Positions 816 through 63,992 of a DNA stretch of 64,000 nt are shown in pieces. The notes under the pieces are model-generated. The model saw nothing but the letters and a program-made list of their open reading frames with translations. It made no database searches and had not been told where the DNA came from. Each line of letters starts with the position of its first letter. The stretch's first letter is position 1. The DNA is taken from contig MU006107.1 of the NCBI GenBank assembly GCA_010093705.1, forward strand, positions 108,031-172,030, in the 5' to 3' direction. The DNA comes from Patellaria atrata CBS 101060 (Eukaryota; Ascomycota; Dothideomycetes; Patellariales; Patellariaceae). The position numbers and the translations under genes were made by a program.

Positions 816-3800
816 TTACTCACTCAGATCCATAGGGTCAACGAGAGCCGTCTCGGTATAATGCTGAGAAAACGACATCAATGATGAAAACGTCCTCAAC
901 TCATCCACGCTCTCCACGCCGAACTTGGCGAGATGATCCGACTTTTCGAGATAAGATCGAGGAACGAGACCATACCGGCCCTTCTTATCTTGGACAAGGC
1001 GTACTTTCTCTGCTTTTGGTCCCTTTTCAGCGGACTCGTCCTCGATGTCTGCTTTGGCTGTCGACTCAAAGTCACTCCTTTTATGCTGCCAGAGAGCGTT
1101 GCGTCGTCTCTCCCTCTGCTCTAGGATGTCGACTTCGACCGTGTTCAAGGTTGCTAATCGGTAGATATAGACCGTCTTTTCCTGACCGTAACGTCGAGCG
1201 CGACCGATCGCTTGCGTCATCGAAGCGTCGTACTTTTGCTGTGTTGTTGCCAACAGCGGGGAGAAGAAGATGACGTGGTTCGCCTTGTAAAGGTTACTGA
1301 ATACGATTAGCAAGGTGGTCGTCACGAATCCATGTTTGGTTAACTTACTGTCCAGCAGCGGAGACATCAGCCATATTTAGAACGATGACTTTCTTCCGTT
1401 TCTTCTTATCCTCGTTCTCTTGAAAATCTTTGACAAGTGTTGAACTCTTCGAGTCGTCGTAAATTGCGTGATACTTTATTTCGCGAGAGTCTAGTGACCT
1501 CTCGATAATCCTCATGATCTCGTAGTTCTGGACGAATAATATAATCTGATCGTTCTCCGGCGTGCTTGAGATCAGCTCTAGAACTTTATCGATCTTCTTG
1601 CCCTGGCTCGTATCGCTTTCCTTCATGTCTGCCGTCAAAAGTAGATCAGCGGAGACGAAGTGATGGTCCTCAATTCCTCGGTTGCATTCTGATACAACAC
1701 ACTTTGTGTCGGTTGTGCGCTTGTAGAAGCAAAAGCGGCATACAATATGGCCACAGGGTGAGAGTACACCAATCTCGCTAGCCTTGAACTTTCCTTTCGA
1801 ACATACCTCTGAATCACATGTCATTGACTGCGTATTCCCGGTTGTTGCGAACAAATTTCTAAATTTCAGAATCGAATCGATGTATCTAAGAGACCTTGTA
1901 CCTTTGGCAAACTCTTGTGACATTGGTCGAAGCTTTTCACTAACAAGACTTCGTAACTGTTGCGCGGCCTTCTTAGCATCGAGTTTTACAATACCTCTTT
2001 CCCTGGTCGCATCTTTCTGGCACATCTTAATCAAAGAATGCATCGTTCTGTGGGCCGAATCGTCTCCAAGAAGTTTATGAGCGACAACACTTTGCTTCCA
2101 TTCCTGATAGTGAGTGTCAAGTGCTTTGCAGATTACCTTCAGCTTTTCTGCTTCTAGGATTCGCCGGCGTAATTCCACTTGCAAACCGTTCAGCTCCTCT
2201 TTGCGTTTTGTTTGTATCGCTTCACAGGAGGAGCTATTGGAATTAGATGCTCTAATAAGAGCGTCTTCTGGAGTAATTGCATTGACGAGGTGTCGTACGA
2301 TTCCTCTCGAGCGATCAAGGCGGTTCTCCTCTCTCTTCTCGAATTTCATGTCGGCTGGGTTTAAATAGTGATAGAGTTCCGTATATGTTGCCAATTGACC
2401 AAGGGTTAGATTAACGGGCAAGAACGACTCTACGCACTTGATATTCCGAGTCTCCGCCAAATTTTGGCGAACAAACATCTCCAGAAACCTCAACGCAAGC
2501 GCATGTCGCTGTTCATGCCATGAAGAGGACTTCTTTTCCGCATAAGACAAGAATTTCTCAGCATTTGTCAGTTGTCTTTGAATAGCTCTGACATTAGACT
2601 TGCTGAGGTACTCCAAAGAATCGTTATCGTTCCCCAGATCAACACCTATCAGAGCAGCCGTACGCCTTATATCGGCAAAATCACCCAACTCTGGTGTTCC
2701 TGATAGAACCCATCGTTTCTCGGCTTTCAGGGACTGTATGGTGTCGGAGTGGTTCCTGTCGAGGTAAGTATACTCATCCACTACTAGTCTGTTAAAGTGG
2801 AAACAATGAAGAGGTGGGAATGCTAAATCCTTCCAGCCGTCTTTTGCAGTCAGATTTATTCCTTTCGTCGTCCCACATATGTTGCTACGAGGTTTTGAAA
2901 CTGTCGAAAGCCCTGACTTTCGCCGGTCCTCTTCATACTTTTTCCCACGAAGTCTTTGTAACGTGGGGACCTTACTATGAAATTCGCTGTTCTGGATGTT
3001 TTTAGTATACTTGTCTAACATTCTTGACTTGAATTTCTGGACACCACTTTCTTGGAGCAGTTCAAGATGGGCGGGAAATGTCTTCAAGCAGTAATCCAAC
3101 CAAGTCGAAAAGGGTCTGCCTTTAGTGGTCGAGGGATCTGGTATTGCCCCAAGTTGAGAGAGCTGAGAGATATATGCTTCCGAGGTGAGTACATTCCAAG
3201 AGGCAACCACTATCCTCGCCTGCAAGAAATCGTTGATGCTTAATTTCTTCAAATCCGCAGTTGTCCTTATAACCAACACTTCAGGAGATGAGTATCCCAG
3301 AAACTTAGATATTTCGCCCGGCCACTGGTTGACCATGTCGGGAGGACACACAATTAGAGTAGCCGGAAGATGGATCAGCCCGGTATCTAATCGCAGCTGT
3401 CGAGATGAGTCCCGGATACTTGATGCTGACCGCTCATCGTTCTCTGCTTGCATCAATGCCAGGATGGTCACGGTCTTCCCATACGAAACTTCATCCGCAA
3501 GGACACCACCTTTGACATGTATCGTTGCTTGGGCGCGAGCTTCAGCTCTCCATCCTAATTGAGGGAGTACTGCTTCTTCGACTGCCTCAACAAGAAATGC
3601 GTCATTTCCACTTTCCCGCTGTCTCATCCACGTGAGGGAGCGCATTTGAGACTGTCGTAAAGGCAACTTCATAGAAAGATGGCCATCATACGGCATGTCC
3701 TTAGTGTTACTAGCTAGCCGAAATGGTTGTAACTGTGGCATATCTACAGCGCTGTATTTACTGGACAGCCGCCATGATAATCGAATATCATTGACAGTTT

Positions 3801-6800
3801 TTAACTTAGAGGTAGCTCTATGTACGAGAGACCATACATTCACACCAACGCGAATTGATGCAACATTATTGTGATCGACACTTGTATCGACTTTAAACAC
3901 GTCGGGGCGGCTTTTTAGTGCTAATTCAAAAGCTACAGCTTCTTTGGCGTCCTCGTACGGATAAAGATTCTTTGTATTACCGGAGCCTTCTTTGATTTCC
4001 CATTTGATGTGTGGCGTCTGTGGTGCACACATCCTACATTTCGATTGATTATCGCTTCCGAAAGTGTGCCATACATCTAAACCAGGGATTTTAGGGATAC
4101 GGTTGACGGCCCAACCGAAAATACGCTGGTAATCAGGGCTGACTAGGGTCGGATTTAGAAGCGGCGAATGCAGAGGAATTGTATCTTCAGGGACGCTAAA
4201 CCGACATTCGAAAATCGGTTTTGCTGAGAGGCAATCACTGTCTAAGAATGAAAACCTCGACTCTTGACACATTCGGGAAAAGATTGGTACATCAGCCGAC
4301 ACCAGTCGCGTTTGCTGTGGTACATCACTTGTCCACATCCAGTCTAGTCCGACTTGTGTCTTCCGTTCGCTGACATGCTCAGGGAGCCAGTTTGGGCTCA
4401 AGCGACCCAGGATTTCGCTGTTGGGTCTATCTACATCACGTTCGCAGGTCGTGGTGAAGATAAAAGAGTCCTTTTCTGGATTTCCAATGGGATCTGGATC
4501 GTGACGTAGATACACAGGGAGGATATCTAAATTTTCCCGGTCATGAGGCTCCCTTCGATACAAGCTCGCCCGCGACGTCCCACAATCTGGTAAGTAATTG
4601 TACTTTCCGGCCATCTTCTCGAAATACGGAAATGTTTTTTCTGTGAATTTTACCGTCAGGATTGAATGAACAGTTTGCTCTTTGAAGTGTAATAAACCCA
4701 ACCGGTTTTGCCACGAAGGACTCTTCTGACCGGACCCTAAGATGGAAATTGCTTCTTGTATCTGGGAGGGGACCCTCCATTCCCAACGGCCCGATAAAAG
4801 TCCCTGTTTGATTGGAGACTTTCCTATATGAAACCGCTCCAAAGAATTTCTCAAGAAAGATTCCCCTGGAAGGTCAGGCGGTGGTATAAGGAAGAACCTC
4901 CATTCAGGCATGTTCGACAAGAGCAACTCCAGCTTCGCAAAGTCTGATTCGTACATAATTGACCATGTTCTTCCTCTCTTGAAACGTGCTAAAGTGAAAT
5001 ATTGTTTCATAGCAGTAGTATAGATACCTTTGAAGGTCTCCCACATGTCGGAGCCAGCCTTCGATTCAGACTTTGATTTGAGACTGTCTAATCCTGCTAC
5101 GTCTTGAAATTCGAGACGCGAAGGGAAAAGGAATTTCCACCGATCTTCGAATTCTGATGGCTTGATACGGCGATCAAAGCAGGCAGACGCCAGTCGATAG
5201 TTATGAACCGGGTTACCTGCACACTTCAAACAGCTGGTATGACCACAATCATGACATATCCGGATATTGTCTACCACTCCGTTCAGTCCTTCGCAATCAC
5301 AGTATTGCTGACTACGGCGTGCATCATTAAGAAGATCTTCTATGTTGATGCCCCGTTTGTCTTGCATAATAGTGGATTCTTTCATTTTCAGATCCTTTAA
5401 AAGACGAACCTGTACCCTTGATTGCTCCATGATACTAGAAACGACTTGTCTTTCATGCTTCGACAGGCCTTGGTAAGCAACAATAAGCCCTGATAGAATT
5501 GCAGACCCAACGACCGTCGAAGACATTGCATTGCCGGCAAGATCGCGTATGTCTTCATCCGACTCCTTTGTGAATGTGATTCTATCAACCGGAATGCCTT
5601 GTAACCGTAAGGTCTCGTATCCGGTCAACGGCCGAGCCCTATCCGAGCAGTATGCCGATCCCCTAGGAGTAATACACCCTGCGATCCCAAAATGGCCGCT
5701 ATCAATAAATAAGTCAATGTTCTGGGTAGTATCCCAGATTCGAGTTTTGTATTGGGTGTCGTAACCGATGCCAGTCTCAGGCCCGGCCTTCCGTAGATGG
5801 GCTATCTCAATGAAGTCGTGAACCCGATGCGTCTGTTTTCGTAACCACGTTTTATCGGCATACTCTAGCGGCCTTAATGAACCATTGTCAGTCCAATTAG
5901 TAATGGGTCGGCCGAATCCAAGACGATTCTTGACCCTGAAACGTTCATGTCTGCCTCGACACGTCTCCCAATTTGATTCTTTCTTGAGAATGCTATCATC
6001 ATTCCGGTTTGCCGAATTTTTCTTCGCAAGTTGGATTCTTGGATCATTTTCTGGGAGAATAAACGACGTCACTGGGCTGCTCGCTTGTCTCTGGAAGCTT
6101 TCGAAAACAGTGAACCATGACTGTCCCAGCTTCGAGAGTCTATTGATCATCTGTCGCCTATCAACACATACCATATAGCCACGCTCTCGAGTTTGTGGGA
6201 GGTAAAAGTTCTTCGTGTCCACTTTCGCGGCTTGACTCTCGTATTCGATCTCATCGAAAAGTTCTTGAAACTGAGGCCAAGGCGCTTTAGAAACATTCTC
6301 AACAATTATGATCGTAGGTCTGCGGATCCGTGCATAGTTCAAAACACCATGAAAGGTATCCCGAGACTCACCCAATTGATCAATCGTTTTGCGTTTCCCA
6401 TTTAGCGCGGAATAGTCTACGCATGAGGGGCCGACAACTAATAGATCACAGGATGGCACTTCGATCAATGATCCGTAGGCAGTAGTAGCTTCGAATTTCT
6501 TCTTCTTGCTACCTAGGGGATCAACATCCTGCAAAGTAACACTCGAAAACTCTCGAATATCACGAAATAGTCTTTCCGGATGAAAGTTTCGTTCGATGTA
6601 TGCTTGCTTGAACTCCACGAGTTCTGCACTGAACACGTGCTCAACGTGGAAATTATCGATTCCTGTTCTCTTTAAACTATCTTGGACCATCTGTAGAGCT
6701 AGAAGAGGACTTTCTGTCCCGGAACACATTGTAGCAACTTTTAACGGGTTACCGTCCAGGTGTTTAATCACGTTACGAAGACCATGATCAAGAGCATTCT

Positions 6801-7626
6801 TCGTTATGCTATCAAACATCTTGCTTATATCGAAAAGAGGTGGCAGAGTGGTATCAATCTCTTTCGCGTTCTTGTGTCGAGCTAGGAAACGCGGTTTCTT
6901 GAAACGGTTTGAAAAAGTAGCAGGTTCGCTCTGCTGCCTTATCTCATCACCCATTTTCATAGATTGTATAGCCGGCTTTCTTTGATTCTTCGGTAGAGTG
7001 TCAACATCCTCTTCCGTAACCTCACTTTCACTACTTGAATATACTTCCGAGGGTGATGACACTTCATCCTCAACATCTTCCACCTGCTCATATTGTGATG
7101 AAACGGAAGAATCATCAGAGACGTCGCTCTCATCAGAGGGAGTTATGGGTGAAAGTATGTAGGATTTCCGCGCTGACCTTTGTGGGCGTGAACGTTTGGT
7201 AGTAGTAGAATCATATTCATTGTCTTTACGATTGGATATAAGCTCAATAGCTGGATCCGTCATTAGCTTAGGTATACTATTTAGATGGTGTGAGGAGGGT
7301 TTTGTAAGCGCATCTATCAGTGTTGTACTAAATGGTCGACGTTTAACAACTATATCTAAGTCAGTCACATCATCATAGGGGAAAAAAAGCGTTACTGCTG
7401 TAAGTCAGCGGAGGACAAGATCCATACTCTCAACATGGGACAAAATGCGCCTCTTTCGAGCTGGCATTTCCTGTGAGGATCCATTGGGGAGTAAACATCT
7501 GGTTTTCAAAGGAGAACGGTTGCTCGCAATGGTAAATATTCGAGAGGCTGGTTTGACTGCAATTATATTGCATTCGCTGTCCGAGTTCTCTGGTGAGTGA
7601 TAGGATGCCGCCCGTTTTCGAACCAT
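816..7626 (-). CDS. DNMT5-type cytosine DNA methyltransferase / SNF2 ATPase
   Basis: Predicted product about 2,228 residues: exons 7626-7428, 7355-1349 and 1296-816. The last intron (1297-1348; GTAAGT, GCTAAT branch, CAG) is clear. The first (about 7356-7427, or acceptor at 7350) is tentative; both choices keep frame and remove an in-frame stop near 7405. Counting from about 7368, the protein has an acidic low-complexity N-terminus, then a C5-cytosine methyltransferase domain (motif I MCSGTESP ~211, catalytic GPSCVDYS ~312, VENV ~357, QTRER ~393, motifs IX-X ~580-615), a Cys-rich finger ~693-720, and a Rad5-like SNF2 ATPase (ADEVSYGKT ~1288, DEYT ~1526, LSGTP ~1556) with a RING finger (~1851-1894) inserted before the helicase-C lobe, which ends QAIGRARRYGQ. 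This order matches DNMT5, known in Cryptococcus as an ATP-dependent maintenance methyltransferase. No chromodomain is visible. Nuclear role in CpG methylation is inferred from the family. Confidence 0.9.
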
Positions 7627-12775: not shown

Positions 12776-15700
12776 ATGCCATCCATACACCCTATCTTAT
12801 TGCCCTCTGTGGCCTTTACTTTCTTTGTATCATTTTTCACTATTGTTAGCTATGTCACTGCGCTCGGAGCCACGGATACGATCACCTGGGGTGGTGACAA
12901 CTCTCGCTCGGGATATCAAGAGTGAGTCTTCCTCGAACGTGCTTTCAGGGTCGGATCCCCTTACATATATTAACACTATCTAGTAATCATAATTTAGATC
13001 CGTCCATTGTTGGAAGTGCCAACTTCGGCCAAATATTTAGGACCCCACTACCAGGGAACTACAAGGGGATTGGACCAGAACAAGTCTTCTCTCAGCCCCT
13101 TGTCTTTACCGGTGGTGATGGAATTCAGCACGTGTATATTGCTACAACACAGAATAACATCTATAAGCTAGATGTAAAGACTGGAGAGATCCTACTTCAA
13201 CGTAACCTTCATGTTCCGTTCCTAACAGCCGACTTAGATGGTAAGTTCTATTCCGAACAGATCTCTACTATCATGCTTTAGCAACATACAATATCAGATT
13301 GCTTACAGTTTCACACATCAGGCTGCGTCGACATCAACCCTGCTGTGGGTGTTACTGCTACTGGCGTCATCGATCCGGCGACAGGTATTTGGTATGTCCT
13401 AGCGAAGACTTACTCGGAGGCGTATCAGAATAATGTTCTAAATCCTGCCCAACCCCCCGGACGCTTGAAGGGACGGTATTACTTCCATGCTATCCATACG
13501 GAAACCTTAGCTGAGGTTCAGGGGTTCCCAATCAACCTTGAGGGTCTACTCTTCAGAAACAATAAGAATCGTATGTTTCTAGGTGGAAATCAGCATGCTC
13601 GTCCCGGGTTTCTTCAAATGGGCGACTTCATATATACTGGGTTTGCTTCGCATTGTGTCCAGTATAATTTTACCGGAGCGATCATCGGATTCAATAAGAA
13701 CACCGGAGCTATTGTCGAAGCGTTCGCAACACAAGGGGGTATTGAGCCTAATAGCATTCCAGGTGGCGGTGTATGGATGAGCGGTGGTGGTATAGCATCC
13801 GACGGTCAGGGCAGTATGTTCTTCAGTACTGGCAATGGATATGCATCCCAGCTCAAAGAAGATGGTGCACCTGTTCCGGGAAGGCAACCTCCTACAGCAC
13901 TGGAAGAAGCCGCTGTCAATGCCAAAGTCAATGACGATGGCACTATCACCATAGTGGATTTCTTCATGCCTTGGGAAAAGGTTCAATTGGACGGTGCGGA
14001 TAAGGATTTAGGCACCACACCTCTGCAACTTCTTCCCAGTCAATTTGCTTGTCCGAACGTGCGCCGTATGGGCGTTGTCACAGGGAAGTCAGGAAAGACG
14101 TACTGGCTAGACATCAACAATCTTGGCGGTTATCAAATGGGACCGAATAAACAGGATGCTGTTCCGCAGGTTTACCAAAACGAAAACTCGGTATATGCTG
14201 GCGCAGGTATCTACCCCCTTGATGGAGGTTATGTCTATGTCAATGTTATTCAGTTCCAGACTCATGTCTTCAAGTTCAGTTGTAATAGTCAGGGCAACCC
14301 GCAGTTTTCCTTGGTCGCGAATACACCAGAGAAGAACGCTTATGTCCTTGGTACCGGTCACGGCACGACCACATCCCTCAATGGTCAGCCGGGAACTGGG
14401 TTGTTATGGGTCTCAGATGTTGAGGGAATCAACCTTCGCATCTATAAAGCAGTTCCGGATGGAGGTTCTATGACACTCATTAAAGGGTTCGACATACCTG
14501 GTGTAGTCAAGTTCACCCGTCCAGTGTTTGGTGATGGGAGAGTCTATATCGGTAAGCATCTATAGTTCCTTCGCTATACTTCTCGCCGCTGAAATCAACC
14601 CAGGTACTCAAGGTTATGTCTATGGGTTTGGATCACCCGTAAACCTTCCTCTCAATTGCTCTTCCCCTTACGATTTCGGTACGACGCCTGTCGATGGCGC
14701 ATCTACACCCCGTACAATTCGATGTATTGCAAACATCGCGACGCAAGTTATTGGCATCGGTTTAACGAGCGGCAGGGATTTCGTGCTTTCCGGTCTTCCA
14801 ACGGTACCGTTTCAGTTAGCTCAAGGAGCTGCCTTGACTTTCCAAGCTGCATTCACCCCTAAATCGGTGGGTCCTCTGGCTGGTCAGGTACTGGTCAACA
14901 CAACAAATCCAATTGCGGGATATTCAATATTTACACCTATAACGCTAAAGGGTACTGCGAACTCCCCAAGACCTGTTCTTTCTATCAGTCCAAAACAGGT
15001 CAATTTCACTACCATCGTTGGTGAGAATCCAAATGGAGTTGTGGGTTCTACGATATTCTCCAATTTAGGTGACTCTCCTCTAACAATCAATAACATTACA
15101 TACTCTCTAGTTAGTGAAAGAGGACCATGGGTTACCCCTGTCGTCACCGGTGGCGGTGTCCAAGTTGGACCATTCACGTTTAGTGATCTTCCAACGACTA
15201 TATCTGGCGGTTCATCTGTTACTGTCGAGATTAATTACAATCCAAAGACCGCGGGGAACAATGTAGTCTACGCTCAAATCAACACCGATGGAGGTAGCGC
15301 ATTCCTCGACGTATTCGGAACCGCCAGCACCTATCCTGGTGCTCTTGTCGAATTTGAAAACGCGGACGGTTCTGGGTGGACCAGGTATCAGGAAGGCGTA
15401 CCATTCTCGTTTGGCAGCGTATTGAGGAGTCAAACCAAAACATTGAGACTACGAGTGACAAACAGTGGTACAGCCAGTGCGGCTCCTCTTTCGATCACTG
15501 TGTCCAAACCTCCTTTCGGCGTGGGTGGCATCATTGGAGCTGTCAACAACATCGATTTAGCAGAAGGTGCTAGTATTCCGGCCGGACAAAGTGCCACAGC
15601 TAGTCTTTTCTGCTCCGTTCCCGGTTCGCAGGTTAATCTACCAAGCTACGGGGGTTCGGCTTCATGGACAATGAATACAGGTGATCCTAACCTTGGGAAA

Positions 15701-18700
15701 CTTTTCATGAGTTTCACATGTACCGCTGTGACGGAGCAACTTGGTCCTCGTCTCCAAAACGGAACTGCTCAATATGGCTACGTTGGATGCTTCAAAGAGA
15801 ACAATCCCGAGCGTCAACTTGCAATTATGGCATATGGAGATCAAGGGAACGAGAACGGCCGCTGTATAAACGCATGCTTTAGTCTCAACTACAGATTTGC
15901 CGCCACCCAGTATCAGTCAGAATGTTGGTGTGGTAACGCCATCCCCAATGATCTAGACCCCGAAGAAGACTGCAATTACCTATGCAGTGGTAACAGAACT
16001 CAAACTTGCGGCGGCGACGGCTACTTCCATAACCAAGCACATATGTCTCTCTTTGCTGATAAGCTGAGGTTTGATGGGAATACTACTGCGGAACCCATTC
16101 ATATCGTCCAGTCAGTCGGGCGCTATAATTATCTTGGATGCTATTCCGAGAACAATGGCAAGGCATTCAACCAGAAGGTCACAGCTACAGATGCCATGAC
16201 AACCCAATTCTGTGCTGACTTCTGTGGTGCTTATGATTACTTTGGGCTGGAGTACGCGAGTGAGTGTTACTGTGGAACAACACTAAATGCAGCTGTGGCG
16301 ACCAAAGTCACCGATGGCCAATGCAATATGGCATGTAAAGGTACTAACAGCGAATACTGCGGAGCTGGAAGCAGGATGCAGGTATACAAAGCAAATGGCA
16401 CCGCACCGACAACCTCTACAAGCGTTACATCCGCACCCACGTCTAATCCCACAGGAGTCGGCCCTCTTGCAAACTACACCTATATGGGCTGCTACAGTGA
16501 AACCTCAGATAGGAGGGCATTACTTAGTCCTAAGGGCTTGGGCGGTGGTCCTACGAACACCCGTGAATCTTGTGCCCAGTTTTGTCTTGGATACAATTAC
16601 TTCGGTGTTGAGTATGGCTCCGAGTGCTACTGTGGAAACGAGATCTACTCAAAATCAGCGAAGCAACAAAATGAAGATGGATGCAATGTTCCCTGCGCTG
16701 GTAACCCAAATCAAATGTGCGGAGGAGGAAATTTCTTGAACATCTTCTTCATCAATGCCACTGGAACGAGCCCCTCATCGACAAGTGCTGGACCAACCCC
16801 TACTGAGACTGGACCTGCTACTGTCCCGTCAGCTGGCGTCTTCAGGTCCCTTGGATGTTACAATGAGATCCCTGGACGCGCTCTGACTGGACCGAGCTTC
16901 TCTAACAGCTCCAACTCCATCCAGTTCTGTGCCTCGTTCTGTACCAGCTACCAATTCTTTGGAGTCGAGTATGGCTCAGAGTGCTACTGCGGTAATTCTC
17001 TGGGATCTGGATCTTTGCCAGCTACCGGTTGTACAGTCACTTGTGCGGCCAATCCTCTCCAGTATTGTGGTGGAGGAGATCGCCTCAATTTGTATATAAA
17101 GAACTCTACCACAGTCGGTGGAACTTTCTCAAGCTCTTCTGCTGCCACCGCCTCTCCAATCCCGACAGGCCCAAGTGTAGTTCCGCGAGCTGGCAACTAT
17201 GTGTCCATGGGTTGCTACAATGAGAAGCCTAATGGCCGTTCGTTGGGAGTACTATATCCCGATGACCAGATGACGATACAACTATGTGCCTCTCAAGCTA
17301 CTTCAGGCAAATGGAACTATTTCGGTGTCGAATTCGGTCGAGAATGTTGGATGGGCAATACAACGGACCCTTTGAGCCTGCTGAAACCCCAGAACAACTG
17401 CAACATGGTCTGTCCAGGAAACTCTTCACAATGGTGTGGAGCTGGAAATTATCTTCAAATGTACAATCTTACTACAGCAACAGTACTTCCACTTGCGGCT
17501 ACTATACCTTCCTCTCCTTCACCTACGGTTACGCCAACTCGATCTTCAAGTGTGAGCTCAACATCGGGACTGATGAGTGCCAGTGCCTCTTTAGCAGCAA
17601 GCAGTTCCTTGACAAGTCTTCCAGTAAGTAGTCGGTCAACTAGCTCCAGGAGTTCCACGATCTCTTCGACCGTCCCATCAACCAGCTCTAGAAGTACTAC
17701 GGTCTCTTCGAGCAGTCGCTCAGGAAGCTCAAGTTCAAGCACAATTCCCTCAAGCAGTCCGACTACAAGCAGTATCCTTTCAAGCAATCATCTAAGTAGC
17801 TTAAGTACCAGCTCCATCCCGCTGATTTTACGAGAATCCTCTACTAGTAGCACCAGTCCTTCCAGCTCAGCTCTCCGTCCTACTACCAGTAGTCTTCCCC
17901 CAAGCTCCAGTCTCCGCTTAACCACCACCAGCGTTCCCTCAAGCTCAAGTGTACGCACAACAGCCAGCAGTGCACCCGGCACAACATCCTCTTCTACGCG
18001 TCCTGCTTCAATCCGCTCTACAACTTCATCTACACCCCTCACATCATCCCGCCCAACAACCTCATCCACGCCCCTAACCTCCGCTCGTACAGCATCCACC
18101 TCTACATCATCAGCTCGCCCAGTCGCTTTAGCCACAGTCTCTTCCTATACCCACCAAGGCTGCTACACCGAAGGAACGTCCGGTCGTGCTCTTCCCGCTC
18201 TCAGTTATACGAACACCACCGCAATGAGTCCCACATCCTGTGCCTCCTTCTGCACACAATACGCCTGGTTTGGGGTCGAAAACGGAAAGGAGTGCTACTG
18301 TGGACCTTATGTCAAAAACGGAGCTCAGAACCTCACCATGGCACGACAGGGAGAGTGCTCGTATCCCTGCTCCGGGAACAAGGGCTTCCTTTGTGGTGGG
18401 AACAGTAGGATCAACATGTACTACTCGAGTAGTAGCAGTAAGGTAGACACAGATCCGGTGACGGTGCAAAGAGAGGGAAGATACACATTCTACTCCTGCG
18501 TTACTGATAGCAGGGATCGTAGGGCGCTGACAACGAGGGTGCTGGGCGATGATATGACGGTACAGAAGTGTATGGGTATCGCGGAGAGGGGGGATTATTC
18601 GTGGGCCGGCGTGGAGGTGGGGAGAGAGTGTTGGATGGGAAATATTCTCGATGCGGGAAGTAGGAATGTTACGAAAAGTTCTACTGAGAGTGGGTGTAGT

Positions 18701-18772
18701 ACTGGTTGTAGGGGAGATCCGAGGCAAGCGTGTGGTGGTGGGGATAGGATTAGTCTTTATAAGAGGGTTTAG
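12776..18772 (+). CDS. Secreted PQQ-like propeller / Ig-like / seven-WSC-domain protein
   Basis: Exons 12776-12921, 12984-13240, 13322-14551 and 14604-18772 give 1,933 residues. A hydrophobic N-terminus (~1-30, ending VTALGA) is a signal peptide. Residues ~35-560 resemble a PQQ-type beta-propeller (VYIATTQNNIYKLDVKTGE, GVTATGVIDPATG, and a late TGLLWVSDVEGINLRIY blade). Residues ~590-920 look like tandem Ig-like ASH/HYDIN-type modules (PYDFGTTPV, FTPKSVGPLAGQV). Seven WSC domains follow at ~930-1030, 1050-1140, 1169-1262, 1290-1377, 1407-1500, 1725-1820 and 1835-1933, with a ~210-residue Ser/Thr-rich linker between the fifth and sixth. WSC domains bind wall glucans. No transmembrane segment or GPI signal is seen, so an extracellular or wall-associated protein is inferred. 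A catalytic role of the propeller is unproven. The fifth and seventh WSC domains each lack the same pair of cysteines. Confidence 0.88.
17490..18130 (+). repeat. Low-complexity Ser/Thr-rich coding repeat in the WSC protein
   Basis: Runs of TCA/AGC/ACA/ACT codons encode about 210 residues that are mostly Ser and Thr, interrupted by short motifs of the SSxRPTTSS type. Such mucin-like linkers are usually heavily O-mannosylated and extended. The degenerate internal repeats make length variation between strains likely. Long open frames in the antisense direction here are shadows of this composition. Confidence 0.85.
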
Positions 18773-47724: not shown

Positions 47725-48762
47725 ATGCCTCCCTCAACGCCTCCACGACGCCATCATCTTACTCGCGATCAACGAATCCAAGTCCAAACATTACGAGGAA
47801 TTGGCCTTACATATGAAGCAATTGTCAAGCATCTTGGATTCTCATACCAGCAAGATCAGCGAGCAGGTCAAGCCGAGCAAGTCACACCAAAGAAGCGTAG
47901 CGGGCGCCCACCACAGTTATCACAAGAGCAGGTTGAAGAATTGATTGCGTATATACGTCAATCACGAGAGACACGTCGTATGAGCTATCAGAGACTCGCA
48001 ACTGAGATATTTGCACACTGGGGTGTTGGTGAATATGCAATCCGATCCTCATTACGTCGCGCTGGATATCGAAGGTACGTTGCCTTAGCCAAATCTCCAT
48101 TAACTGAGGCTAATCGTTTGAAGAGATTAGCCTGGGCAGAGGAGCATGTGGAGTGGACATACAACCAGTGGTGCACAATACTTTGGAGTGACGAGACCTG
48201 GGTCAATGGTACAAGGCATCGAAAGACTTGGGTTACAAGACAACAAGGTGAAGAGCTAGAAGATACATGTCTGGTTACAAAGAGACGTTGTAACCGTGGC
48301 TGGATGTTTCGGGCATCATTCAACGGTACAACAAAAGGGCCATGTCTCTTTTGCGAGAAGGAATGGGGCAGTATCAATCAAGATACATACTGCAATCGTA
48401 TCGTACCGATTGTACATGGGTGGATAATGATGAATTCAGGTTTAATCTTTATACAAGATAATGCTCCTGGGCATGCAGCGGTAGCGACGATTCAAGAGCT
48501 ACAAGAACGTGGTATCAACACCATGACATGGCCTCCATTCTCACCAGATCTCAATCCTATTGAGACAGTATGGAACTGGATGAAGGACTACATACAGCAT
48601 AAGTATGGGGCTCTTGACAATCCAACATACGATACATTACGTACTATCGTGAAGGAAGCATGGGAGGTAATTACAACTGAGCAGCTTCATGAACTGATTG
48701 AGAATATACAACAACGCTGTAAGGGCGTCGTTACAGCAGAAGGCAGATTCACAAAGTGGTAG
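47725..48762 (+). CDS. Tc1/mariner transposase (DD34E)
   Basis: 345 residues, single exon. An N-terminal paired helix-turn-helix DNA-binding region (LTRDQRIQVQTLRGIGLTYE, then GRPPQLSQEQVEEL and YQRLATEIFAHWGV) precedes the DDE domain. The catalytic residues are Asp in LWSDETWVNG, Asp in IQDNAPGHAA and Glu in SPDLNPIETVWNWMK, with 34 residues between the last two (DD34E, Tc1 type). The length and all motifs look complete, so the protein is plausibly active. The ATG lies 142 bases inside the left inverted repeat. Confidence 0.97.
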   Translation: MPPSTPPRRHHLTRDQRIQVQTLRGIGLTYEAIVKHLGFSYQQDQRAGQAEQVTPKKRSGRPPQLSQEQVEELIAYIRQSRETRRMSYQRLATEIFAHWGVGEYAIRSSLRRAGYRRYVALAKSPLTEANRLKRLAWAEEHVEWTYNQWCTILWSDETWVNGTRHRKTWVTRQQGEELEDTCLVTKRRCNRGWMFRASFNGTTKGPCLFCEKEWGSINQDTYCNRIVPIVHGWIMMNSGLIFIQDNAPGHAAVATIQELQERGINTMTWPPFSPDLNPIETVWNWMKDYIQHKYGALDNPTYDTLRTIVKEAWEVITTEQLHELIENIQQRCKGVVTAEGRFTKW

Positions 48763-59667: not shown

Positions 59668-62600
59668 ATGGCTACCAGGAGTCAGCGTGGGATACGCATT
59701 GCGATTGATGTGAGTCAAAAGCACCCTTCTACTCCCTAATACTAAAAGGTATCACAGAGGGGTGGTACATTTACCGATTGTGTCGGGAACCCAGGTACAG
59801 GGAAAATGGAAGATGATGTTATTATAAAACTTCTTTCAGAGGATCCCTCGAACTATGAAGATGCGCCCCTCGAAGGGATTCGTCGGCTCCTTTCTAAATT
59901 TACGGGCAAGGAAATACCTCGCGGCGAAGCATTGGATACCTCCAAGATTGAAAGTATAAGGATGGGTACAACAGTCGCAACCAATGCCTTACTAGAAAGA
60001 AAAGGAGAAGAAATTGTAATGGTCGTCACCAAGGGATTTAAGGACTGCCTAGAGATAGGCAACCAATCTCGACCAAACATCTTCGACCTTGCGATCAAAA
60101 AGCCGGATGTTCTGTACGAAAAGGTTATCGAGGTAGACGAGCGCGTCACATTGGAGGATTATGCGGAAGATCCATACAGGAATGAAACGGAAGCAGAGTC
60201 TTATGAGTCAGCGGGACAAGATACAGAACTTGTAAGAGGCCTATCAGGAGAGACAGTTCGTATATTACGGAGACCTTCAGAAGATACCATCAGATCGCAA
60301 CTTAAGAAAGTCTATGATGAAGGCATCAGGAGCATTGCGGTATGTCTCATGCATGGTTATACCTATCCAGCACACGAAGCCCTGGTGGGCAAACTGGCCA
60401 AGGACATTGGATTCTCACATGTGAGCTTAAGCCATGAGTTGATGCCAATGATCAAACTGGTCCCAAGAGCAACCTCAGCATGTGCAGATGCTTATTTAAC
60501 CCCTGCTATAAAGAAGTACATCTCTGGTTTCGAAGCAGGTTTCGAAGGAGGACTAGGTTCGGAAAGTGTCAAGCGTCAAGGAGAAGAGAAAGGCGCAAGG
60601 TGCGAATTCATGCAATCCGACGGCGGTTTGGTGGATGTGGACAAGTTCTCCGGTCTTCGAGCTATCCTATCGGGACCTGCTGGTGGTGTCGTAGGATATG
60701 CGTTAACTTCGTACGATTCGGAAACCAAAATACCAGTCATTGGCTTCGATATGGGCGGTACCAGTACAGATGTCAGCAGATACGGATCCGGAAGATACGA
60801 CCATGTCTTCGAAACGACAACTGCTGGCGTCACAATTCAATCTCCCCAACTGGACATCAACACAGTCGCGGCTGGTGGTGGCTCACGTCTCTTCTTCAAG
60901 AACGGTTTATTTGTTGTTGGACCCGAATCTGCTGGTGCTCATCCTGGACCTACTTGTTACCGAAAAGGAGGACCCCTTGCTATCACCGATGCTAATCTAT
61001 TTCTCGGACGTCTACTACCAGACTTTTTCCCTAAAATATTCGGGAAGAACGAGGATCAAGGATTGGACGCCGAAGCAAGCGAAAAAATGTTTAAGGAGCT
61101 GACTGACCGCATCAACAAAGAAGTTGCCAGTGAGAAGAAAGATAGCGAGATGTCAATCGACGAGGTAGCTTATGGTTTTATCAAAATTGCGAATGAAACT
61201 ATGACAAGGCCGATTAGATCACTAACCGAAGCAAGAGGTCATGATACTTCGAAGCATCGGCTTGCTACTTTTGGAGGAGCGGGTGGACAACATGCAGTAG
61301 CTATCGCACAAGCTCTTGGTATATCGCAAGTTCTAATTCATAGATACTCATCCGTTCTGTCGGCATACGGTATGGCCTTAGCTGATGTCGTTGATGAGAA
61401 GCAAGAGCCGGACTCAAAAGTTTGGAACGACGATGATGATGAAGTTAAGAAGTATCTGAGGGGTAAAATGGAAGACCTGAAGGCTAAATCAACTGCAACT
61501 CTCAAGGATCAAGGATTTAATGATGAACAAATTCACTTCGAGGAGTACCTAAACTTGCGTTATCGTGGTACTGAAACTGGCTTGATGGTTGTAAAGCCAT
61601 CCAAGGAAGAAGCCGATAAAGACTATAATGGTGATCAGTGGAACTTTGGTAAAGCATTTGTGAAGCAGCACGAGCAAGAGTTCGGTTTCACTCTACCAGA
61701 TAGAGATATTATCGTGGACGACGTTCGTGCTCGCGGTATCGGAAAGACATTCGAGGGCCTTGAACAGACCGTAGATCAACAACTGAAGGAACTCAAACCA
61801 AAAGATCTCGGTGGGGAGGAGAAACGATACGCTACACGACAAGTTTACTTCGAAGGCGGCCGTCACGAGACCCCGATATATAAACTTGAAGACCTTGATG
61901 TTGGTGACCGCATAAAAGGCCCTGCAGTTCTAGCGGACGGGACACAGACTATTGTGGTAACCCCTGAGACAACCGCTCTCATTATCAAGACGCACGTGGT
62001 TATCAATATTGGCGAGAACGGGGGACAAGACAATAAGAAAGTGGATACTAGCACTGTTGATCCCATTATGTTGAGTATATTCGCCCACAGATTCATGGCA
62101 ATCGCAGAGCAGATGGGAAGAGCTTTGCAAAAGACTAGTGTTAGCACGAATGTGAAGGAGAGGCTTGACTATTCTTGCGCGCTCTTTGATGCGGATGGTG
62201 GTCTTGTTGCGAACGGTAATTAAGCTCCCCTATGCTGCTACTGAACCTTACTAACAATATTTACAATAGCTCCTCATTTACCTGTCCATCTCGGCAGCAT
62301 GTCGACATGTGTCAGGAAACAGGCAGAAATCTGGAAAGGAAAATTGAAGAAAGGAGACGTCCTCGTCTCTAATCATCCTATGTTTGGTGGGACGCATCTG
62401 CCCGACATTACCGTTATCACACCCGCTTTCAGTGGTGATAAAATCGTGTTCTATGTAGCCTCAAGAGCACACCACGCTGATATAGGGGGTATCCTTCCAG
62501 GATCAATGCCACCCAATTCTCGAGAGCTATTCCAGGAGGGCGCCGCAATCAAATCGGAAAAGCTTGTCTCCGAGGGCAAATTCAATGAGAAACGGATGAT

Positions 62601-63992
62601 CGAGCTGTTGCTTCACGAACCCGCGCAATGGCCCGGGTGTAGCGGTACCAGATGTCTAGCAGACAATATCAACGATCTGAAAGCACAGATCGCGGCGAAC
62701 CAGAAAGGCATAAACCTGATCAGTACACTCATAGAGGATTATGGGGAAGATGTTGTTCAATTTTATATGCATAATATCCAGGACAATGCTGAGTTAAGCG
62801 TAAGGAATTTACTAAAGGACGTCAGTAAACGATTTGGAAGCGACAATCTGTCGGCGATCGATTATATGGACGATGGTAGTCCGATTAAGTTGAAGATTAC
62901 CATCGACGCCGAGAAAGGAGAAGCTGATTTCGACTTCACTGGGACAGGAGCTGAAGTATATGGTATGATAAGTTATCATTACCTCGATAGATTATGGTCT
63001 AACCGTGACAACTAGGAAATATCAACGCACCCGAAGCAGTTTCTTACTCTGCGATCATCTACTGTTTACGGTGCTTGATATCACAAGACATTCCTCTGAA
63101 TCAGGGTTGTCTGAAACCAATTAACGTCAAAATACCGAAAAGATCTTTCCTTTCTCCTTCAGATAAGGCTGCTGTCGTTGGTGGTAATGTTCTTACGGTG
63201 AGTCTTATCTGGGTTATGATCAGTCCACCCAGTTAATTAGATACTAATATACCCTAGAGCCAACGTGTTACCGATGTAGTACTGAAAGCTTTTCGAGCAT
63301 GCGCTGCTTCGCAAGGCGACTGTAACAATCTGACATTTGGATTCGGAGGGAATCAATCAGGCGAGGAAGAAGTGAAAGGTTTCGGATATTATGAAACCAT
63401 TGCCGGAGGTAGCGGGGCAGGTCCTACATGGGACGGCACTTCTGGTGTGCACGTACACATGACGAACACTCGCATTACAGATTCAGAGATATTCGAGCGA
63501 AGATACCCGGTGATTCTAAGGGAGTTCAGTCTACGTGCTGGTAGCGCTGGGAAGGGGCAACATCCGGGCGGAGACGGAGTGATTCGAGATATAGAATTCC
63601 GAATCCCGGTACAGGTCTCCATACTTAGTGAGCGGCGGGTATACCACCCTTACGGTTTAGAAGGAGGTGAAGACGCAGAATGCGGGATAAATTATTGGGT
63701 GCGGAAGGTCGAGGATCTGGATCCGAACGCTGATAGCGCAGCGCCGGACGAAGGTGATCAAAAGGTAATGAAGACTGGAGCAAAGGCACCGGATGTCGAG
63801 TATGTCAACTTAGGAGGGAAGAATACGGCTAGCATGCGGCCCGGAGAGCGGATCATAGTTATGACCCCGGGTGGAGGTGGATGGGGTAAGGTTGGGGAAA
63901 AGAGTCAGGCTGTGAAAGGCAAAGAGCCAACGCATGCCTGGAGAAAGGGTAGCATAGCGGAACGCCAGGCGATGGCCGAAGCTTCGGCTTGA
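59668..63992 (+). CDS. OXP1: 5-oxoprolinase (ATP-hydrolysing)
   Basis: Exons 59668-59709, 59758-62215, 62270-62962, 63016-63197 and 63258-63992 give 1,369 residues, slightly longer than the roughly 1,290 of yeast Oxp1. The 14-codon first exon is needed to complete the N-terminal nucleotide-binding motif (IRIAID joined to RGGTFTDC). Domains: HyuA N-terminal (~1-240, with [13 protein letters not shown]), HyuA core ([42 protein letters not shown]) and HyuB ([56 protein letters not shown]). It opens 5-oxo-L-proline to glutamate with ATP in glutathione turnover; cytosolic. The stop codon is eight bases from the window end, so the gene is complete. Confidence 0.96.

Follow-up and report, generated by a model that had tools for sequence, protein, structure and literature searches.

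In the 64,000-nucleotide window of Patellaria atrata DNA analyzed here, the plus strand from 12776 to 18772 holds one gene of four exons that encodes a protein of 1933 amino acids. The three introns are 62, 81, and 52 nt long, and all are of the GT–AG type. The protein consists of a hydrophobic N-terminus, a propeller, an Ig-like region (residues ~556–930), five WSC domains, a linker, and two further WSC domains, with the following features.

12776..12921 (+), exon 1: hydrophobic N-terminus resembling a signal peptide, then the beginning of the propeller
12776–12862 (+), N-terminal residues 1–29: signal-peptide-like by hydropathy
12872..14635 (+), quinoprotein-type β-propeller: residues ~33–555, exons 1–4
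12984..13240 (+), exon 2: first blade region of the propeller
13322..14551 (+), exon 3: bulk of the propeller
Residues in exon 3 (+): Cys136 (13324), Val247 (13657), Trp286 (13774), Asn306 (13834), Asp361–Asp363 (13999–14007), Lys390 (14086)
14604..18772 (+), exon 4: end of the propeller, Ig-like region, seven WSC domains, and stop codon
14663..14905 (+), choice-of-anchor D/HYDIN-like Ig module 1: choice_anch_D profile
14939..15286 (+), choice-of-anchor D/HYDIN-like Ig module 2: choice_anch_D profile
15323..15760 (+), probable third Ig-like module: residues ~785–930, weak matches below cutoff only
15779..16015 (+), WSC 1: PF01822 match
16130..16366 (+), WSC 2: PF01822 match
16481..16726 (+), WSC 3: PF01822 match
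16850..17074 (+), WSC 4: PF01822 match
17207..17443 (+), WSC 5, six-cysteine form: PF01822 match
17498..18145 (+), Ser/Thr-rich mucin-like linker: residues 1510–1725 (216 residues, 60% Ser + Thr)
18155..18400 (+), WSC 6: PF01822 match
18491..18739 (+), WSC 7, six-cysteine form: PF01822 match, beside the C-terminus

The gene model is supported by an orthologue (orthologue D, locus L022), in which intron 1 lies at the identical codon and the coding sequence runs uninterrupted across the sites of introns 2 and 3. The original prediction had placed a propeller, Ig-like modules, and seven WSC domains in one protein, and the four-exon gene model and the domain searches agree with this arrangement. 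It had also named two separate genes as the finding that would speak against it. That two adjoining genes, for a propeller–Ig protein and a WSC lectin, were misread as one is very improbable. One paralogue (copy C) is indeed a propeller alone, but exon 4 is a single open frame from the propeller through WSC7, and the identical fusion is present in a second paralogue (copy B) and in orthologue D.

Copy B (L009), located in the same genome, has 1380 residues and is composed of the propeller, the Ig-like region, two WSC domains, a linker, and one WSC domain. Copy C (L021, 1501–3616, contig C2 of the genome) has 553 residues and ends immediately after the propeller; no Ig or WSC match was found downstream of it within a 7-kb region. 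Copy C has probably lost the Ig and WSC parts, because copy B, the 12776–18772 gene, and orthologue D all carry them. Orthologue D (record NYXK01000007.1, 53647–67370) is filed under a deltaproteobacterial MAG and was the one locus found among 84,980 bacterial and archaeal species by a pattern-based scan, which reaches close relatives. It encodes 1728 residues with five WSC domains, and its three GT–AG introns point to fungal DNA within a bacterial bin. A search of 51 other genomes from its phylum group gave one weak match and nothing in the remaining 50. The contig is evidently fungal DNA binned with bacteria in the GTDB collection, a case of fungal DNA within a reference bacterial MAG. A DEAD-box helicase frame was also seen on it by eye.

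In a small, unrooted tree of 15 propeller sequences, one branch (100/100) sets the four fungal propellers apart from all the others. Among them, the 1933-residue protein and orthologue D (99/99) are separated from copies B and C (100/100), which indicates that the duplication predates the split of both fungi. The nearest other sequence in this tree is L034 (91/93).

The propeller was suspected to have bacterial relatives, and such relatives exist. A tblastn search of 72,556 plasmid records gave relatives on 25 of them (best E value, 7e-26), 18 of which cover at least 80% of the propeller query. The homology spans ~93% of the propeller, with 25 to 29% identity among the 20 best of the 25. By organism name, they belong to Caballeronia (11), Paraburkholderia (9), and Pseudomonas (2), with one each in Acidisarcina, Bradyrhizobium, and Kitasatospora. 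Seven further propeller relatives were found in scans of viral contigs. The bacterial proteins, named “PQQ-binding-like beta-propeller repeat protein” in Caballeronia, Paraburkholderia, Acidisarcina, and Bradyrhizobium, are homologous to the fungal propeller and have common motifs with it. The four whole bacterial relatives are stand-alone propellers of 494 to 584 residues lacking WSC domains, whereas the propeller of the 1933-residue protein is fused to them. In one of the viral-contig relatives (L033), the propeller is followed by repeats that are IPT/TIG-like by eye, suggesting that the propeller gained Ig-like neighbors elsewhere too. Transfer of the propeller from bacteria is plausible.

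The Pfam PQQ_2 cutoff was passed by three of the four bacterial relatives scanned but not by the 1933-residue protein itself, and whole-genome searches with PF13360 and PF01011 did not find the 12776–18772 gene. A nine-row family profile matched the quinohemoprotein alcohol dehydrogenase 1kv9 with a whole-sequence E value of 4.8e-6, which is the sum of weak pieces, none significant alone (best single stretch, 13.3 bits; i-Evalue, 0.23). Through the bacterial relatives and the 1kv9 profile match, the propeller belongs to the PQQ-like/quinoprotein propeller superfamily. In a one-sequence search, a 15-member profile matched PQQ glucose dehydrogenase, located beside the Caballeronia relative, with an E value of 2.8e-8.

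In these two alignments, Trp286, Asn306, Asp361/Asp363, and Lys390 align with cofactor-site residues. In that with glucose dehydrogenase, Trp286, Asn306, the Asp-x-Asp motif, and Lys390 fall on the W, N, WDMD, and K motifs. Both alignments agree on Trp286, Asn306, and Lys390, and the register of the catalytic Asp is ambiguous by two residues (Asp363 with 1kv9 versus Asp361 with glucose dehydrogenase). These positions are strongly conserved in the 15 members: Trp286, Asn306, and Asp363 are each kept in 14 of the 14 that have a residue there, Asp361 is kept in 13 of 13, and Lys390 is kept in 14 of 15, the remaining one having Arg. By alignment, therefore, the Trp, Asn, Asp, and Lys/Arg residues of PQQ-dependent dehydrogenases are present. 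Among the cofactor-site residues of known enzymes, Trp243 stacks on PQQ. The metal ligands of MxaF are Glu177, Asn261, and Asp303, and Arg331 belongs to the second shell; XoxF has an additional second Asp two residues further (PMC8028316). The column of Val247 would correspond to Glu177 of MxaF as judged from the alignment. It holds Asp or Glu in 12 of 14 members, and copies B and C retain the acidic residue, whereas the 1933-residue protein and orthologue D have Val. The presumed acidic metal ligand is thus replaced in the protein studied here. A vicinal disulfide is also missing, as residues 1–560 contain no Cys–Cys pair. The vicinal disulfide is absent from some quinoproteins as well. Tc323, a eukaryotic protein lately reported to be PQQ-dependent, likewise lacks the pair (PMC13384848). 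1kv9 and the membrane glucose dehydrogenase resemble the 1933-residue protein in the profile match and the aligned site residues, but differ in that the latter has no Cys–Cys pair and has lost the acidic ligand.

The HYDIN/ASH-like type proposed for the Ig-like modules held for two of them. The whole region passes the bacterial choice_anch_D model NF012200 in two stretches (48.4 bits; cutoff, 45), and the single modules in the genome search remain below the cutoff (28.2 and 25.0 bits). With these two modules, the gene is the sole match to this model in the genome. The Ig-like region of copy B scores 29.8 bits, also below the cutoff. For the third module, all matches are below the cutoff: NPCBM_assoc in the present protein, Cep192_D4/NPCBM_assoc in orthologue D, and DUF1573 in copy B. 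A tblastn search of the plasmid records with the Ig-like region gave no relative at E values up to 1, so a bacterial source for this part is not supported by the search.

PF01822 matches the protein in seven stretches (380.4 bits; curated cutoff, 27.8), and all seven WSC domains pass the cutoff singly. The genome (28.29 Mb in 46 contigs) has 14 PF01822 matches in all; this gene accounts for seven and copy B for three, and the remaining four lie at other places on three contigs. Eight conserved cysteines are found in five of the seven domains. The other two, WSC5 and WSC7, are each the last domain of a run and have six cysteines; the two that are missing are the same in both and presumably form one disulfide in the eight-cysteine domains. 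WSC1 is nearest to the WSC1 domains of copy B (44%) and orthologue D (44%), and its remaining matches have 24 to 33% identity. From this pairing, the first WSC domain looks ancestral, and the others appear to have turned over.

Hydropathy peaks at 2.08 near residues 7–25, and after residue 60, no 19-residue window exceeds 1.24, leaving no transmembrane-like segment there. The C-terminus directly adjoins WSC7. Based on these two features, the protein is probably secreted and held noncovalently. Here, we propose, with somewhat better than even confidence and from sequence comparisons, that it is a modular protein attached to the fungal wall or its outer glucan matrix, with the WSC domains as anchors, an Ig-like stalk, and a quinoprotein-fold head. 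Each WSC domain would bind wall polysaccharide weakly, and together they would bind firmly; the seven copies and the rigidifying linker suggest anchoring by avidity. The Ig modules and the glycosylated linker may serve as stalk and spacer, and the propeller may be the working head. The last assignment fits the degree of conservation, which is highest in the propeller (67.8% identity to orthologue D) and lower in the Ig-like region (49.3%) and among the WSC domains (24–53%).

The original description as a “glucan-anchored multivalent enzyme or adhesin” fits published WSC lectins, and the soluble matrix of Serendipita indica is enriched in WSC proteins (PMC9252488). WSC-bearing AA5 oxidase constructs with one WSC domain each bound none of six polysaccharides (PMC13094651), which counts against wall anchoring. 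Like the WSC lectin SiWSC3 and the sensor Wsc1, the protein has WSC domains and a Ser/Thr-rich stretch, but these are fused to a propeller–Ig head. It also differs from Wsc1, which has a transmembrane segment, and the transmembrane segment and cytoplasmic tail of Wsc-type membrane sensors are not found.

The same general plan is known from the WSC-AA5_1 copper radical oxidases. In FgrAldOx and VdaAA5_1, a propeller is combined with three to five WSC domains and an Ig-like part (PMC13094651 and PMC13390370). Secreted proteins with a propeller, an Ig-like part, and several WSC domains are therefore a kind already known. The rarity argument that the original prediction drew from the WSC copy number was too strong. 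Despite the shared plan, there is hardly any chance that the protein is itself an AA5 oxidase with WSC domains, as in Fusarium, Colletotrichum, and Verticillium. AA5 enzymes have a seven-bladed propeller that belongs to a different family, and the domain order is reversed: the WSC domains are N-terminal in AA5_1 and C-terminal to the propeller here. No AA5 Pfam match was found in residues 1–934 at E values up to 1, and the sole PF07250 match in the genome is on contig C7, where the WSC search gives nothing. In the open-licence papers searched, the fusion of a quinoprotein-type propeller with choice-of-anchor D modules and WSC domains does not occur; it may well be present in fungal protein databases under a WSC-domain label.

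For the head of the proposed tethered protein, the single most likely specific role would be a cofactor-linked chemistry that goes back to a PQQ dehydrogenase, and the main alternative is a cofactor-free “empty” binding propeller. An active PQQ-dependent dehydrogenase would take up bacteria-made PQQ and a metal ion and, at the wall, oxidize an alcohol or a sugar with electron transfer to an outside acceptor. The conserved Trp, Asn, Asp-x-Asp, and Lys at the cofactor-site positions argue for this role. The AA12 enzymes show that PQQ use is possible in fungi (PMC6881810), and PF22807, the model of this PQQ enzyme family, matches above the cutoff at four places in the genome (C2, C3, C5, and C11), so use of outside PQQ by P. 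atrata is conceivable on sequence grounds. Against it are the lack of the vicinal Cys pair, a set of Pfam matches without any heme or electron-transfer domain, and, above all, the Val at the presumed metal-site acid, because of which we regard PQQ-dependent oxidation by this protein as rather unlikely. If the fold is instead a binding surface without cofactor, the whole protein would be an adhesin or matrix cross-linker. This is a real possibility, though one we hold at somewhat less than even. Val247 in both the protein and orthologue D is consistent with it, as are the nearest folds by VIA-align, which include non-enzymes such as BamB, and a weak touch of the “acido-empty-quinoprotein” model TIGR04528 in one of the four bacterial relatives (E value, 0.077). 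It is opposed by the other presumed site residues, which are strongly conserved even between distant relatives. The more elaborate proposal that a bacterial-type eight-bladed quinoprotein was anciently passed to fungi, fused to lectin domains, and now works at the wall as a tethered PQQ dehydrogenase of a non-AA12 class appears improbable. In that reading, the Asp-x-Asp motif could even form a lanthanide-using site as in XoxF, but mGDH has the same motif. The protein has in common with the fungal AA12 dehydrogenases the idea of a secreted fungal quinoprotein, but these are six-bladed and sGDH-like (PMC6881810), and PF22807 is absent both from the matches of residues 1–934 and from this locus in the genome search.

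If the head binds PQQ, the protein would be a second kind of fungal PQQ enzyme besides AA12, placed at the wall by lectin domains, and could oxidize wall or host sugars using a bacteria-derived vitamin. If it does not, the protein would clearly exemplify the reuse of an enzyme fold as a binding head on a tether. A direct test would be possible with the set of the 1933-residue protein, the orthologue, paralogue B, which bears the Asp, and paralogue C, which is a propeller only.

Other frames were noted in the window. On the minus strand, 1345–7263 is a frame of 1972 residues with C-5 cytosine DNA methylase and SNF2 domains, which we take to resemble DNMT5-type maintenance methylases. On the plus strand, 47725–48762 is an uninterrupted frame of 345 residues for a Tc1/mariner-like transposase (DDE_3 and HTH_Tnp_Tc3_2), and 59806–63015 contains ordinary 5-oxoprolinase-type hydantoinase A/B frames.
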